A stretch of DNA of 5,339 nucleotides from Candidatus Rokuibacteriota bacterium (GTDB lineage Bacteria; Methylomirabilota; Methylomirabilia; Rokubacteriales; JACPHL01): positions 1 through 5,339 of the forward strand of contig JACPHL010000332.1 in the NCBI GenBank assembly GCA_016188625.1. Reading direction: 5' to 3'. The translations under genes and the position numbers were made by a program. Under the pieces are notes generated by a model. It did no database searches. It was not told where the DNA came from and was given only the letters and a program-made list of their open reading frames with translations. The stretch's first letter is position 1. The number at the start of each line of letters is the position of its first letter. Positions 2 through 5,339 of the stretch are shown piece by piece.

Positions 2-850
2 CGGCACGTCAAGAAGATCTCCTTCCTCCGCGACCCGGCGGGGCCCCCACCCAGGCCGACCTTCCCCCTGACCGCTCGCCTCGTGACGGCCCGGTTTCTG
101 GACCGGGAGACGATCCACGGCATCACCCAGGGGGGAGGACCCCGGAGCGGGCTCTTCCTGGTCCCCACCGCCCTCGACGAGGTCGAGCGGGTCTTCGTCC
201 CCCTCTCGGCGATCCGGGACGTCGTCTCGGTCAAGCGGCTGGGGGAGATCCTCGCCCAGCAGGGGGCCGCGACCCCCGCCATGGTCCAGCGCGCCCTCGA
301 GCGGCAACGGCTCCTCCGAGGTGGGCACCGGACCCCGATCGGCCAGCTCCTGCTCGGGGCCAGCGCCCTGAGCGGGCCGCAGCTGGCGCAGGGGGTGTCC
401 CTGCAACGGCGAGGGGCGGGCCGGCGGCTCGGGGAGATCCTCGTCGAGCAGGGGTTCATCACTCGGGCCCAGCTCGACGAGGCCCTAGCGGTTCAGCGGC
501 GGCAGCTGGCCGAGGACACGAGGCTGGGGGCGATCATGGTCGAGATGGGCGTCACCACCTGCAATGCGATCGGCATCGCTCTGGCGATCCAGTACCAGGT
601 CCCGTTCCTCGACCTGGCCGGCCGGTCGATCGACCCCGGACTCCGCGAGCTCGTGCCGGCGGCCCTGGCGCGCCGGTGGCAGATCGTGCCGGTCAGCCTC
701 GAGGAGGGGATCCTGACGATCGCGCTGGCCGACCCGACCGAGGAGGCCGCCCGGGACGAGATCCGGGCGGCGACGGGGCTGACGGTGACCGCCGCGGTGG
801 CGACGCCTCCGGACGTCGCCGGCGCCATCGCCCGCTGGTACGGGCCCTAG
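2..850 (+). CDS. DUF6982-like / tandem MshEN (GspE_N) c-di-GMP receptor-type protein, 5'-partial
   Basis: The frame is open from the left edge, so the start lies outside the window. A GTG at 83 is a possible start but falls inside the first beta domain, whose strands begin upstream (HVKKISFL near residue 2). 282 residues are visible, numbered from codon 2-4. Residues 1-77 resemble the DUF6982 beta domain (TARFLDRETIHGITQ, then GLFLVP and RVFVPLSAIRDV). Four tandem copies of the 24-residue MshEN motif (RLGxx..hhxxGhhxxxxLxxxLxxQ) follow, at about 79-102, 112-135, 142-165 and 174-197. Copies 1 and 2 are degenerate; copy 2 begins PIG instead of RLG. Copy 3 fits perfectly (RLGEILVEQG...Q) and copy 4 nearly so, with 8 residues between them. 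Residues 198-282 have the GspE_N alpha/beta fold (YQVPFLDL, LTIALADPT). In this family a tandem motif pair binds one c-di-GMP. No Walker motif or secretion ATPase domain follows, so it is probably a cytoplasmic c-di-GMP effector rather than a pilus or type II motor. The partner is unknown. Confidence 0.85.
   Translation, partial: RHVKKISFLRDPAGPPPRPTFPLTARLVTARFLDRETIHGITQGGGPRSGLFLVPTALDEVERVFVPLSAIRDVVSVKRLGEILAQQGAATPAMVQRALERQRLLRGGHRTPIGQLLLGASALSGPQLAQGVSLQRRGAGRRLGEILVEQGFITRAQLDEALAVQRRQLAEDTRLGAIMVEMGVTTCNAIGIALAIQYQVPFLDLAGRSIDPGLRELVPAALARRWQIVPVSLEEGILTIALADPTEEAARDEIRAATGLTVTAAVATPPDVAGAIARWYGP
847..850. other. Shared CTAG stop of two convergent genes
   Basis: The + strand gene ends with TAG at 848-850 and the minus-strand hybrid kinase ends with TAG read from 849 down to 847. 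The palindrome CTAG therefore serves as the stop for both genes, which overlap by four bases. No room remains for a terminator between them, so any termination must happen inside the opposite coding sequence. Confidence 0.9.
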
Positions 851-3465
851 GCCGGACCCCCCACGCGGGCCCTTCGCTCCCTCTCCTCCCGCGCGGCCCG
901 CTGGATCACCCGCCGGACCTCCTCCAGGGCGAAGGGCTTGGCGAGGCTGGGGGCGCCGGTCTCGTTCAGGAACGCGGTGATCTCCGGGCTCAGCGTGTCC
1001 CCGGTCAGGAAGACGACCCTGGGGAGGAGGTCCGGGCGGCGGCGGGCCAGCTCCCGATAGAGGCCCGGCCCGTCCAGCTGGGGCATCCGGAGGTCGCTCA
1101 GGATCAGGTCGTAGGACCGCGTCTGGAGCGAGTCCAGGGCGGAGGCCCCGTCGTCGGCCACCTCGACCTGATGGCCGTCGGCCGCCAGCATCTCCGCCAG
1201 GACGTCCGCCACCTCGGGCTCGTCGTCCACCACCAGGATCGCCTGTCCTCGGGGCGCCGGGAGCTGGTCCGCCGGCGGCGCCTCGGGCCTGGCCCGGGGC
1301 GGGGCGACAACGGAGAGATCGATCCTGAAGGTCGCTCCCTGCCCCGGCCGGCTCTCCACCCCGATGGATCCCCCGTGCGCCGCGATGATCCCCTGGCAGA
1401 GGGCCAGCCCGACCCCCGTCCCCTGCCCCGGGGGCTTGGTGGTGAAGAACGGCTCGAAGATCCGCGCCTGGATCTCGGGGGGGATCCCGGGCCCGCTGTC
1501 GGCGACCTCCAGCGTGATCCGGCCCCGGGCGGGATCGTGTCGCGTGGTGAGGGTGAGCCGGCGCGGGGGCGGCGTCCCGCGCATGGCCTGCTGGGCGTTG
1601 GTGATGAGGTTGACCACCACCTGACCGAGCTGGTGAGGGTCGGCCCAGAGGACGGGGAGCCCGTCGGCCAGGTCGAGCCGCACCTCCACGGTGTCCATCC
1701 GGAGCTGGTAGGCCAGCAGCTCCAGGACCTCCTCGACGACCTCGTGGAGCCGGACCGGGTGCCGCTCGGGCGGATGCTGGTGGGCCATGGCCAGGAAGTT
1801 CTTCACGATCCGGGCGCAGCGCTCCGCGGCCCGGGCGATCTTCTCGGCCCGCTGCGCCAGCGGCCCGCCCTCGGCCGCCTCGCGGAGCAGGGCCGTCTGC
1901 CCCAGCACGACCGAGAGGGGGTTGTTCAGCTCGTGGGCCACGCCCGCCAGCAGCTCGCCCATGGCGGCGAGCTTCTCGCTCTGGGCGAGCTGGCCCTGGA
2001 GCCGGCGCTGCTCCTCCTCCCGCCGCCGCCGCTCGGTGATGTCGGTGAAGGCGATCACCGCGCCAACGATCGCGCCGCGCTCCCGGATGGGGGTGCTCAC
2101 GTACTCGACCGGGAAGCTCGTCCCGTCCTGCCGCCAGAACACCTCGTCCCTGACGCGGGCGACGGCGCCGCCGGCCAGCGTGGCGTGGATCGGGCAGTCC
2201 TCCAACGGGTGGGCGGTCCCGTCCGGCCGCGAGTGGTGCACGACGACGTGCACGGGCTGGCCGACCAGCTCCTCCGCCGCGTACCCGACCATCGTCGCGG
2301 TGGCCTGGTTCACGAAGGTGGCCTTCCCCTCGAGATCCACCCCGAAGATCCCCTCGCCCACAGAGTCCAGGATCAGGGCCTGGCGCCGGGTGAGCCGGTC
2401 GAGGGCATCGGCCATCTCGTCGAAGGCCTGGGCGAGCTGGCCCAGCTCGCCTTCCCCGTGCGGCAGTCCGGAGCGGACGCTCAGGTTCCCCGCGGCGAGC
2501 CGCCTCGCGGCTCCCGCCAGGGCCTTGATCCGGCGCAGGACGAACAGGTCGCCACCCACCCACGCGGCCCCGAGCGCCAGCGCCCCGACGAGCCCGACTC
2601 CGACGAGGTTCTTGGCGAGGAGCCGGTCGAGCCGGGAGAGAACGGCCTCCCGCGAGAGGCCGATGCTCAGATAGATCTCCCCGGCATCCCGGGCCTCGAA
2701 GAGCGGGAGGAACCCGAGGATCTGCGGGACGCCGTCGAGGTCCACCGCCTCGGCGACGCCGATCCGGTCGGCCAGGGCCGTCTTGACGATCGCCGCCTCC
2801 GGGAGGGAGCGCCCCACCCAGCGCTCCGGGTCGGGGTGGCGGACCAGGATCGTCCCGTTCCCGTCGATCACGGTGAGCACCGACCCTGGCGGCAGCGAGG
2901 CGTCCGCGCCCAGGCGGCCGAGCCCGGAGAGGTCGAGGGCGGCGAAGACCACCGCCCGCACCCGGCCCTCGTCGTCGAGGGCGGGGTAGCCGAGGTTGAT
3001 GGTCGCCCGGCCCGTCGCGCGGCCGATCTGGTAGTCGCCGACCGCGAAGGCGCGCGTCGCCACGGCCCGTTGGAAGTAGGCCCGGTCGGCCAGGTGGATG
3101 GGCCTGTCCTGGGGGAGGGCGCTGCAGAAAAGCTCGCCGTCGGGGTCGATCGCGCCCAGGTTGGCGTAAAGGGGGTACTCGGGGAGCAGGGCGGCGAAGA
3201 GCGCGCCGCAGGCCTCGCCCTTCCGCTCGCGCACCTCCGGCAGGTGCGCCAGGCCGACCAGGAGTTGCCGCGCCCCCTCCAGCACGCGCGCGTGATTGGC
3301 GGTCGCGAGGCGGGTCAGGCGCAGCACGCTCTCTCCGACCTCGGTCGCCGCGGCCCGCCGCCGTTCCAGGGCCGAGGAGAGGATCAGTCCCGCCATCGGG
3401 AGGAGGGCGACGAAGACGAGCGCCAGGAGGCGGGCGCGAAGGCTCGAGAGCAGGGATCGGGTCAT
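847..3465 (-). CDS. Hybrid sensor histidine kinase (dCache-HAMP-PAS-HisKA-HATPase-REC)
   Basis: Complete 872-residue inner-membrane hybrid kinase. The basic N-terminus (MTRSLLSSLRARL) leads into TM1 at about 12-32. Residues 33-284 form an extracytoplasmic dCache-type sensor (ANLGAIDPDGELFCSA, LADRAYFQRAV, AVGDYQIGRATGR, LTVIDGNGTILVRHPDP). C86 and C114 could pair as a disulfide. TM2 is at about 287-309, HAMP at 309-360 and PAS/PAC at 362-480. HisKA carries phospho-acceptor H511 (GVAHELNNPLS). The ATPase domain shows the N box with N619 and N623, G1 DSGPGIP from D656, F box FEPFFTTK from 670, and G2 GTGVGLAL from 682. A proline-rich linker (about 721-740) leads to a receiver at 742-860 with D747/D748, phospho-acceptor D791 (LSDLRMP), T821 and K843. 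All catalytic residues are intact, so autophosphorylation and His-to-Asp transfer are expected. There is no output domain, so phosphate probably moves to a partner or the receiver is regulatory. The ATG at 3465 has no in-frame rival start and no clear Shine-Dalgarno. The upstream kinase ends 41 bp earlier, suggesting one transcript. The ligand is not predictable from sequence. Confidence 0.95.
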   Translation of the reverse strand: MTRSLLSSLRARLLALVFVALLPMAGLILSSALERRRAAATEVGESVLRLTRLATANHARVLEGARQLLVGLAHLPEVRERKGEACGALFAALLPEYPLYANLGAIDPDGELFCSALPQDRPIHLADRAYFQRAVATRAFAVGDYQIGRATGRATINLGYPALDDEGRVRAVVFAALDLSGLGRLGADASLPPGSVLTVIDGNGTILVRHPDPERWVGRSLPEAAIVKTALADRIGVAEAVDLDGVPQILGFLPLFEARDAGEIYLSIGLSREAVLSRLDRLLAKNLVGVGLVGALALGAAWVGGDLFVLRRIKALAGAARRLAAGNLSVRSGLPHGEGELGQLAQAFDEMADALDRLTRRQALILDSVGEGIFGVDLEGKATFVNQATATMVGYAAEELVGQPVHVVVHHSRPDGTAHPLEDCPIHATLAGGAVARVRDEVFWRQDGTSFPVEYVSTPIRERGAIVGAVIAFTDITERRRREEEQRRLQGQLAQSEKLAAMGELLAGVAHELNNPLSVVLGQTALLREAAEGGPLAQRAEKIARAAERCARIVKNFLAMAHQHPPERHPVRLHEVVEEVLELLAYQLRMDTVEVRLDLADGLPVLWADPHQLGQVVVNLITNAQQAMRGTPPPRRLTLTTRHDPARGRITLEVADSGPGIPPEIQARIFEPFFTTKPPGQGTGVGLALCQGIIAAHGGSIGVESRPGQGATFRIDLSVVAPPRARPEAPPADQLPAPRGQAILVVDDEPEVADVLAEMLAADGHQVEVADDGASALDSLQTRSYDLILSDLRMPQLDGPGLYRELARRRPDLLPRVVFLTGDTLSPEITAFLNETGAPSLAKPFALEEVRRVIQRAAREERERRARVGGPA

Positions 3466-3506: not shown

Positions 3507-5189
3507 CTACGCCGGCACAGGGTCCGGCGCCAGGGGGAGGAGGATCCGGAAGGTCGTCCCGATCCCTGGCGAGCTCCGGAAGGTGATGGTCCCCCCGTGA
3601 TCCTCGATGATCTTGTGGGCGAGCGCCAGCCCGAGCCCCGTCCCGTCGGCCTTGGTCGTGAAGAAGGGGTTGAAGACCTTGTCGGCGTCGGCCGCCGGGA
3701 TGCCGGTCCCGGTGTCCTCGATCTCCACCCTGACCCGCTGGGCGTGGGGTCGTCGCCGCACCCGCACCCACGGGTCGCCCCCCTCGCTCCAGCCCGCCCG
3801 CAGCGTCAACCGCCCGCCCGGCCCCATGGCGTCCAGGGCGTTGGCCACGAGGTTCACCAGCGCCTGGTAGAGGTGCTCCTGGTCCGCCTGGACGGGGGGA
3901 AGGTCCCGGGCGTACTCGCGCGCCACGGTCAGCTGCTGAGCCTCGACCTGGTGGGCGTACAGCTCCAGGACCCGCTCGAGGAGGAGCGGGAGCCGCACCG
4001 GGGCGAAGTGGAGCCGGCTGGGCCGCGCCAGCTCGAGGAGCCGCTCCACGATCCCGTTGATCCGCTCCAGCTCCCGCGGGACCACGTCCTGGAAGGTCTG
4101 ACGGAAGCGCTCGTCCAGGAACTTTCTGGGCACGAGCCGCGTGAAGGTGCGGAGCGAGGTGAGGGGGTTCTTGATCTCGTGGGCCAGGCCGGTGGCCAGC
4201 GTCCCGAGGGCGGCGAGGCGGTCGGAGCGCCGGAGCTGCTCCTCGAGCTCCCGGACGTGGGTGAGGTCCCGCAGGACCCCGACCACCCCGAGGTCCTTCC
4301 CCTCGGTCCCCTTGAGCGGCGCGGTGCTCATCTCCACCGGGATGCTCGTGCCGTTCCGCCGCCGGAGCGTCATCGGGAGGCCGGCCACCCCGGTCCGGCT
4401 GGCCAGGGTCTCCATCAGGAGCTCCACGACCTCCGGGGCATGGGCGAAGACCTCGGTGCAGTAGCGCCCGGTGACCTCGCCGGTGAAGAGGCCGGTGAGG
4501 AGCTCCGCGGCGGGGTTGAGGGTGACCACGCGCCCGTCCAGATCGACGGTGACGATCCCGCCGGTGATGGAGGCCAGGATGGTGTCGGTGTAGCTCTTGA
4601 GGTCCGCCAGCTCCTCGAAGCGATGGCGCAGCTCGCTGTGGGCCGCCTCCAGGGCCGTCCGCTCCTCGAAGAGCTGGGCGGCCATGTGGTTGAAGGCGAT
4701 CGCGAGATGGCCGATCTCGTCCGAGGTGGTGGGCTCGATCCGCTGGTTCAGCTCGCCGCGGGCGATCGCCTGCGCCCCCGCGGCAAGCTGCCGGACCGGC
4801 CGGACGATCCGCCGGGCGACCAGGGCCGCCGCCACCCCTCCCAGGACCAGGATCACCACGGTCAGCGCGCCCAGCTCCCGGCGGGTCCGGCTGATCTCGG
4901 CCTCCATCCGCTCCTTGGAGAGGCCCACCCGGACCGTCCCCCACCGCTGCCCCTCGACCCGGACGGGGACGGCGAAGTCGTAGATCGAACCCCCGGTGTC
5001 CGCCATCTCCGTCTCCTGAACCAGGAGCCCTTCCGCGGCCGCCGCCCGCTGGGCCACCTCGCCCTCGAGGGAGAGCCCGACGGATTCGGGGGAGCGGCTG
5101 TGGGCGGCCACCTTCCCCTCGGCGTCCAGAACGATGGCGTAGACCACGTCGGCCTCTCCAAACGACGGATGGAAGCCCAGATCGCCCAA
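3507..5189 (-). CDS. Sensor histidine kinase (periplasmic sensor-TM-HAMP-PAS-HisKA-HATPase), N-terminus missing
   Basis: Numbering is from a TTG at 5189 (560 residues), but this is not a credible start: residues 1-10 are antisense to another kinase fragment, and the frame stays open to the window edge. Genuine sequence begins around DVVYAIVLD (residue 14). Residues 14-92 form a small extracytoplasmic single-Cache/PAS-like sensor (LDAEGKVAAHS, YDFAVPVRVEGQRWGTVRVGLS). TM2 is at about 106-126, HAMP at 127-180, a short coiled linker at 175-198 and PAS/PAC at 198-312. HisKA carries phospho-acceptor H337 (GLAHEIKNPLTSL). The ATPase domain has the N box with N446 and N450, G1 DTGTGIP from D492, F box FNPFFTTK from 506, and G2 GTGLGLAL from 516. 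Catalytic residues are intact. The style is NtrB/AtoS-like, and no receiver is attached. Members normally have an N-terminal membrane segment before the sensor; none is present here, so the gene is truncated by the junction near 5148-5158. A small basic insertion (about 470-485, VRVRRRPHAQ) sits before G1. It lies 41 bp upstream of the hybrid kinase, probably in one operon. Its cognate response regulator is not in the window. Confidence 0.88.
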   Translation of the reverse strand: MGDLGFHPSFGEADVVYAIVLDAEGKVAAHSRSPESVGLSLEGEVAQRAAAAEGLLVQETEMADTGGSIYDFAVPVRVEGQRWGTVRVGLSKERMEAEISRTRRELGALTVVILVLGGVAAALVARRIVRPVRQLAAGAQAIARGELNQRIEPTTSDEIGHLAIAFNHMAAQLFEERTALEAAHSELRHRFEELADLKSYTDTILASITGGIVTVDLDGRVVTLNPAAELLTGLFTGEVTGRYCTEVFAHAPEVVELLMETLASRTGVAGLPMTLRRRNGTSIPVEMSTAPLKGTEGKDLGVVGVLRDLTHVRELEEQLRRSDRLAALGTLATGLAHEIKNPLTSLRTFTRLVPRKFLDERFRQTFQDVVPRELERINGIVERLLELARPSRLHFAPVRLPLLLERVLELYAHQVEAQQLTVAREYARDLPPVQADQEHLYQALVNLVANALDAMGPGGRLTLRAGWSEGGDPWVRVRRRPHAQRVRVEIEDTGTGIPAADADKVFNPFFTTKADGTGLGLALAHKIIEDHGGTITFRSSPGIGTTFRILLPLAPDPVPA

Positions 5190-5339
5190 ACCCGGTGGGA
5201 GCTGGGAGCCTTGACGGCGGTGACGCTGATCTTGGGCGGATTGGCAGCGGCCCTGGTCGCGAGGCGGATCGCCCGGCCTGTCCGCCGGCTTGCCGAGGGC
5301 GCCGCGGCCATCGCCCGCGGAGAGCTGAACCAGCGGATC
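4737..5339. repeat. Diverged inverted repeat, 192-bp arms (4737-4928 and 5148-5339), 219-bp spacer
   Basis: The reverse complement of 4737-4928 aligns to 5148-5339 without gaps, with about 39 mismatches (roughly 80% identity by hand count). Both arms encode the TM2-HAMP part of a sensor kinase, pointing away from each other. The spacer (4929-5147) is the sensor domain of the minus-strand kinase and has no counterpart. Homology fades abruptly to the left of 5148. The right arm ends exactly at the window edge, where both copies read GAGCTGAACCAGCGGATC. The repeat arises from two paralogous genes, not from a mobile-element terminus: no transposase or target duplication is visible. Confidence 0.85.
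5148..5339 (+). CDS. Fragment of a second, paralogous sensor kinase (TM2-HAMP), inverted and partial at both ends
   Basis: The + strand frame from 5148 to the edge encodes 64 residues: VGLSKRRMEAQIAQTRWELG, then a transmembrane segment (ALTAVTLILGGLAAALVA), then the start of a HAMP domain (RRIARPVRRLAEGAAAIARG, ending GELNQRI). It aligns without gaps to residues 88-151 of the minus-strand kinase, with 51 of 64 residues identical. By my count 20 codons differ silently and 13 by replacement, so the divergence looks protein-constrained in this frame. Ten of 64 codons end in A/T, against two of 64 in the other copy. No sensor domain precedes it: upstream of 5148 this frame reads through antisense of the neighbouring sensor and shows no homology. 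The ATG at 5169 lacks a visible ribosome site. It continues past the right edge. It is a real coding sequence by descent, but probably not an intact gene here. Confidence 0.8.

Follow-up and report, generated by a model that had tools for sequence, protein, structure and literature searches.

Two kinds of artificial inverted joins have been described. Microhomology-induced chimeric reads arise in end repair, where either a hairpin forms in one strand or homologous single strands are mis-annealed (PMC8674242), while inverted-repeat chimeras have been explained by similar molecules whose partial single strands pair with each other (PMC10908179). Here we analysed a DNA stretch of 5339 bases (the window), which ends in two inverted, diverged segments of a sensor kinase gene. 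From the sequence comparisons given below, we consider it highly likely that the right end of the window is a chimeric tip, about one read long, that joins orthologous templates, and that it is thus an artefact.

The contig and its inverted arms

The window is a whole contig (C161) of a Rokuibacteriota draft genome (2.6 Mb in 344 contigs, 84% complete, 2% contamination), and position 5339 is the contig end. At the opposite side, another contig of the same assembly, C73, terminates within the left-hand gene of the window and overlaps positions 1-649 at 91% identity, which indicates that the bin contains sequence of more than one strain. The overlap lies at 2794-3451 of C73 (L149); both contigs end in the same MshEN-domain gene, and C73 has a 9-base N gap. 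Searches of the plasmid collection and of Rfam with the window gave no match.

The features at the right end are as follows.

3507-5147, minus strand: native part of kinase A, a single cache (N-terminal part absent)-TM2-HAMP-PAS-HisKA-HATPase_c protein (Pfam, orthologue alignment)
4737-4928, minus strand: left arm, the TM2-HAMP segment of kinase A (repeat search, arm alignment)
4929-5147, minus strand: spacer, the cache sensor region of kinase A, colinear with intact orthologues (orthologue alignment)
5148-5159, no strand assigned: junction microhomology GTCGGCCTCTCC, read as VGLS on the plus strand (copy B) and as (G)EAD on the minus strand (kinase A) (codon pattern, alignment)
5148-5339, plus strand: right arm, the TM2-HAMP segment of orthologue B, inverted and reaching the contig end (repeat search, Pfam, alignment, tree)

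The repeat search placed the two inverted arms of 192 nt each 219 nt apart, with 80% complementarity and without gaps. Their translations, 64 residues each, are 79.7% identical, also gap-free, and a self-BLAST of the arm region gave an E value of about 1e-69, far above chance. The repeat search and the translated alignment hence agree on the position and the similarity of the arms that a sequence-only reading of this DNA had put forward. That reading had also described diverging coding directions and an identical 18-base stretch at the contig end. Both were borne out: the final 18 bases of the contig match arm positions 175-192 of the left arm, and this is the longest identity between A and B within the arms. 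Its statement that the N-terminal parts of both genes are missing at one junction needs a refinement. The N-termini are indeed absent in both cases, but the protein positions of the cuts differ; kinase A keeps its sensor from '(E-A)-DVVYAIV', whereas the first residues of the plus-strand copy, VGLSK, lie 73 residues further on.

The right arm also gave a HAMP match in Pfam. The arms differ at 10, 9 and 20 sites of codon positions 1, 2 and 3, respectively, corresponding to dN of 0.134, dS of 0.551 and dN/dS of about 0.24, values that are comparable to those of orthologue pairs. Judged by these substitutions, both arms look like parts of functional genes under purifying selection, and the distance between A and B appears to be that of genes from different genera.

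A plus-strand open frame of 581 residues runs across the junction. We rejected it as a gene, since its part up to 5147 reads kinase A in antisense, in GC-rich DNA. Directly downstream of kinase A, the minus strand carries an intact hybrid histidine kinase gene (847-3465) with a dCache-like sensor, HAMP, PAS, HisKA, HATPase_c and a response regulator receiver domain. DNA copies that are 74-76% identical to the kinase part of this gene occur on two further contigs (C173 and C260), forming a local paralogue family.

Kinase A in the related genomes

In kinase A, Pfam detected sCache_3_2, HAMP, PAS, HisKA and HATPase_c domains. The sCache_3_2 profile was matched only from position 55 of 140, so the start of the cache domain is missing. 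The upper limit of the native gene in the window is at least 5147 and possibly 5156-5159, inside the microhomology. Orthologues occur throughout the order, the named matches being Candidatus Rokuibacteriota. Of 59 relatives, about 40 contain a single full-length match each (56-76% protein identity), and the next-best kinases of those relatives are at most 43% identical. A phylum-wide search with the kinase A DNA likewise gave one match per genome, and the DNA of the right arm matches the same gene, again once per genome, short weak matches aside.

The orthologues that reach upstream are colinear through the junction, from DVVYAIVLD back to ...LLLYNFTALEQNVxRVAxEx and the TM1 segment. Their TM1 region ends ...YNFTALEQNVxRVAxEx/DVVYA (the slash marks the position of the junction), and about 75-86 residues precede DVV. 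The window follows these orthologues to about 5147 and then turns into the antisense strand, leading to VGLSK... of the second copy; this turn was seen only in the window. The search for intact versions of the kinase, which had been suggested as a check, thus had a divided outcome: an intact single-copy gene is present in about 40 relatives, but no intact N-terminus was found elsewhere in the bin. On its other contigs, searches for the N-terminus of kinase A and for the peptide ABC substrate-binding protein that usually lies upstream of it yielded only weak or paralogous matches, so that no contig of the bin was recognised as the neighbour. Absence of the N-terminus is expected if the contig merely breaks at this point, given the 84% completeness of the bin.

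We compared the arms with the corresponding segments of the relatives. The closest pairs were A with L005 and B with L034 (82.3% each), as against 79.7% for A with B. A tree of the 192-nt arms paired A with L005 (0.815), placed B beside L034 (only 0.485) and kept A and B apart. None of 95 genomes of the phylum proved to be the source of copy B, the best other genome being 82% identical. This tree, weak as it is, and the single-copy status of the gene speak for an origin of copy B in another organism. The two kinases had been taken for paralogues, and this view is not supported: the gene is single-copy in the relatives, and the arms have the character of orthologues that belong to two organisms. 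On this comparison, they are most likely orthologues of one single-copy gene, derived from two related bacteria.

The junction and other contig tips

The strand switch falls on an inverted microhomology, GTCGGCCTC(TCC), of 9-12 nt, where 9 nt are certain by the codon pattern and up to 12 nt are possible. At the junction position, the relative L010 reads exactly gag gcc GAC GTG GTC, which makes a shared stretch of 9 nt or more probable, or of 12 nt if the preceding codon of kinase A is GGA. A conserved inverted repeat, which could act as a hairpin hotspot, was not seen across all the orthologues tested; the matches were of 4-9 nt, mostly 4-5. The window shows three marks of a chimeric contig end: the inverted segment adjoins the end of the contig, a short microhomology lies at the switch and the gene is uninterrupted in the relatives.

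We surveyed the ends of the 111 unmasked contigs read (0.79 Mb) for inverted repeats. Among these, imperfect palindromes of more than 150 nt flush with the end were found only in the window and in C26. Positions 1-405 of C26 (L178) comprise the 3' end of a mutase-type gene, a repeat of about 180 bp and then an inverted, 97% identical 3' end (GAWSLPLF* and GTWSLPLF*), and the genome contains no close copy of that mutase gene end other than this tip. Contig ends doubling back on a variant of their own sequence therefore recur in this assembly. The two cases are not identical, in that C26 turns through a dispersed repeat, whereas the window does not, and C26 could instead hold convergent paralogues.

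The dispersed repeat of about 180 bp (81-94% identical) was present in 27 of the 111 contigs, several times at contig ends. Its sites include C26 (about 111-289), L215 (13681-13860), L171 (3376-3555) and L264 (3374-3557), and on C26 it is flanked by inverted TGTGTCTGAGCAAGGCTTTCGGG sequence. It may represent a MITE-like or REP-like element of the lineage.

Origin of the inverted tip

An origin of the tip in assembly or amplification had already been favoured, and the position at the contig end, the microhomology and the intact single-copy gene in the relatives support it. In the organism, kinase A would be an ordinary sensor kinase gene that runs upstream past 5147 into the TM1 segment. A library strand that stops at the antisense of '(E)AD' (...GTCGGCCTC) may have annealed, via the inverted microhomology of 9-12 nt, to the VGLS region of orthologue B on a template from a co-occurring relative, and would then have been extended along B. 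The assembler would have carried the chimeric sequence as an extension of about 190 nt at the contig end; the actual 192 nt are close to one read length. As for the step at which the chimera formed, we infer that a hairpin or mis-annealing in end repair, amplification or MDA could have acted, together with strain mixing in assembly. Assembler k-mers are usually longer than the stretch shared at the switch (at most about 15 nt). A graph error alone is thus improbable, and a chimeric molecule or read has to be assumed. Random ligation between species would miss the same gene; hence homology-driven pairing or foldback must be assumed. The simplest foldback of a single molecule (an MDA-type palindrome) would give identical arms and is excluded by arms that are 80% identical, so that a second template or a strain switch within the spacer is needed.

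Within the artefact reading, the hairpin foldback might have occurred wholly in a molecule of organism B, and the assembler would have passed from A to B within the spacer at 4929-5147. This variant accounts for a join that is inverted, local and within the same gene, and strains are indeed mixed in the bin; however, it requires an A-B identity of k-mer length in the variable sensor region, while even the better conserved arms reach only 18 nt. We regard it as possible but the less likely route. Considerably less probable is a real event in the organism, in which a TM2-HAMP fragment of a relative's orthologue was inserted head-to-head in inverted orientation through microhomology and destroyed the N-terminus of the resident kinase. 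Arms that differ would fit such an insertion better than a simple hairpin artefact on one molecule; microhomology junctions form in vivo too, and the intact N-terminus was found on no other contig of the bin. Nevertheless, the gene is single-copy and intact in about 40 relatives, the arrangement was seen in no other genome, it is located at a contig end within a strain-mixed bin, and copy B appears to be under purifying selection, without decay.

The remaining explanation, two divergent resident paralogues left by an old inverted duplication in the lineage, could draw on the in-frame arms and their 80% identity. Two copies per genome, which an inverted paralogue pair of the lineage should show, were found in no relative; moreover, orthologues of other genera are no more distant from A and from B than these two are from each other, and the arrangement leaves no room for the N-terminus of either copy. 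We therefore give this explanation very little credence.

With the chimeric tip as the preferred reading, the inverted kinase copy most likely represents no real rearrangement and tells nothing new about the organism, and its importance is limited to quality control. If the tip were annotated, a false 'inverted kinase duplication' would result, and kinase A, truncated here, would be called a pseudogene, although the organism probably has the intact gene. The case also illustrates that contig tips of strain-mixed bins can hold diverged segments of one and the same gene in inverted orientation; a simple search for identical palindromes would not reveal them.

Compared with the sCache-HAMP-PAS-HisKA-HATPase_c sensor histidine kinases of Rokuibacteriota, kinase A is colinear over more than 540 residues, with up to 76% identity, and the sole difference is the loss of its N-terminal TM1 part where the contig breaks off. 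The tip itself resembles the microhomology-induced chimeric reads (PMC8674242) in being an inverted join at a short microhomology; those reads came from human FFPE libraries, whereas here only a finished contig tip is at hand, and the joined orthologues are about 80% identical. It is also like the inverted-repeat chimeras (PMC10908179), in which a sequence is followed by its inverted complement around a natural inverted repeat and similar molecules pair. The arms of those chimeras, however, share one locus and are almost the same in sequence, whereas the arms of the window differ by 20%.
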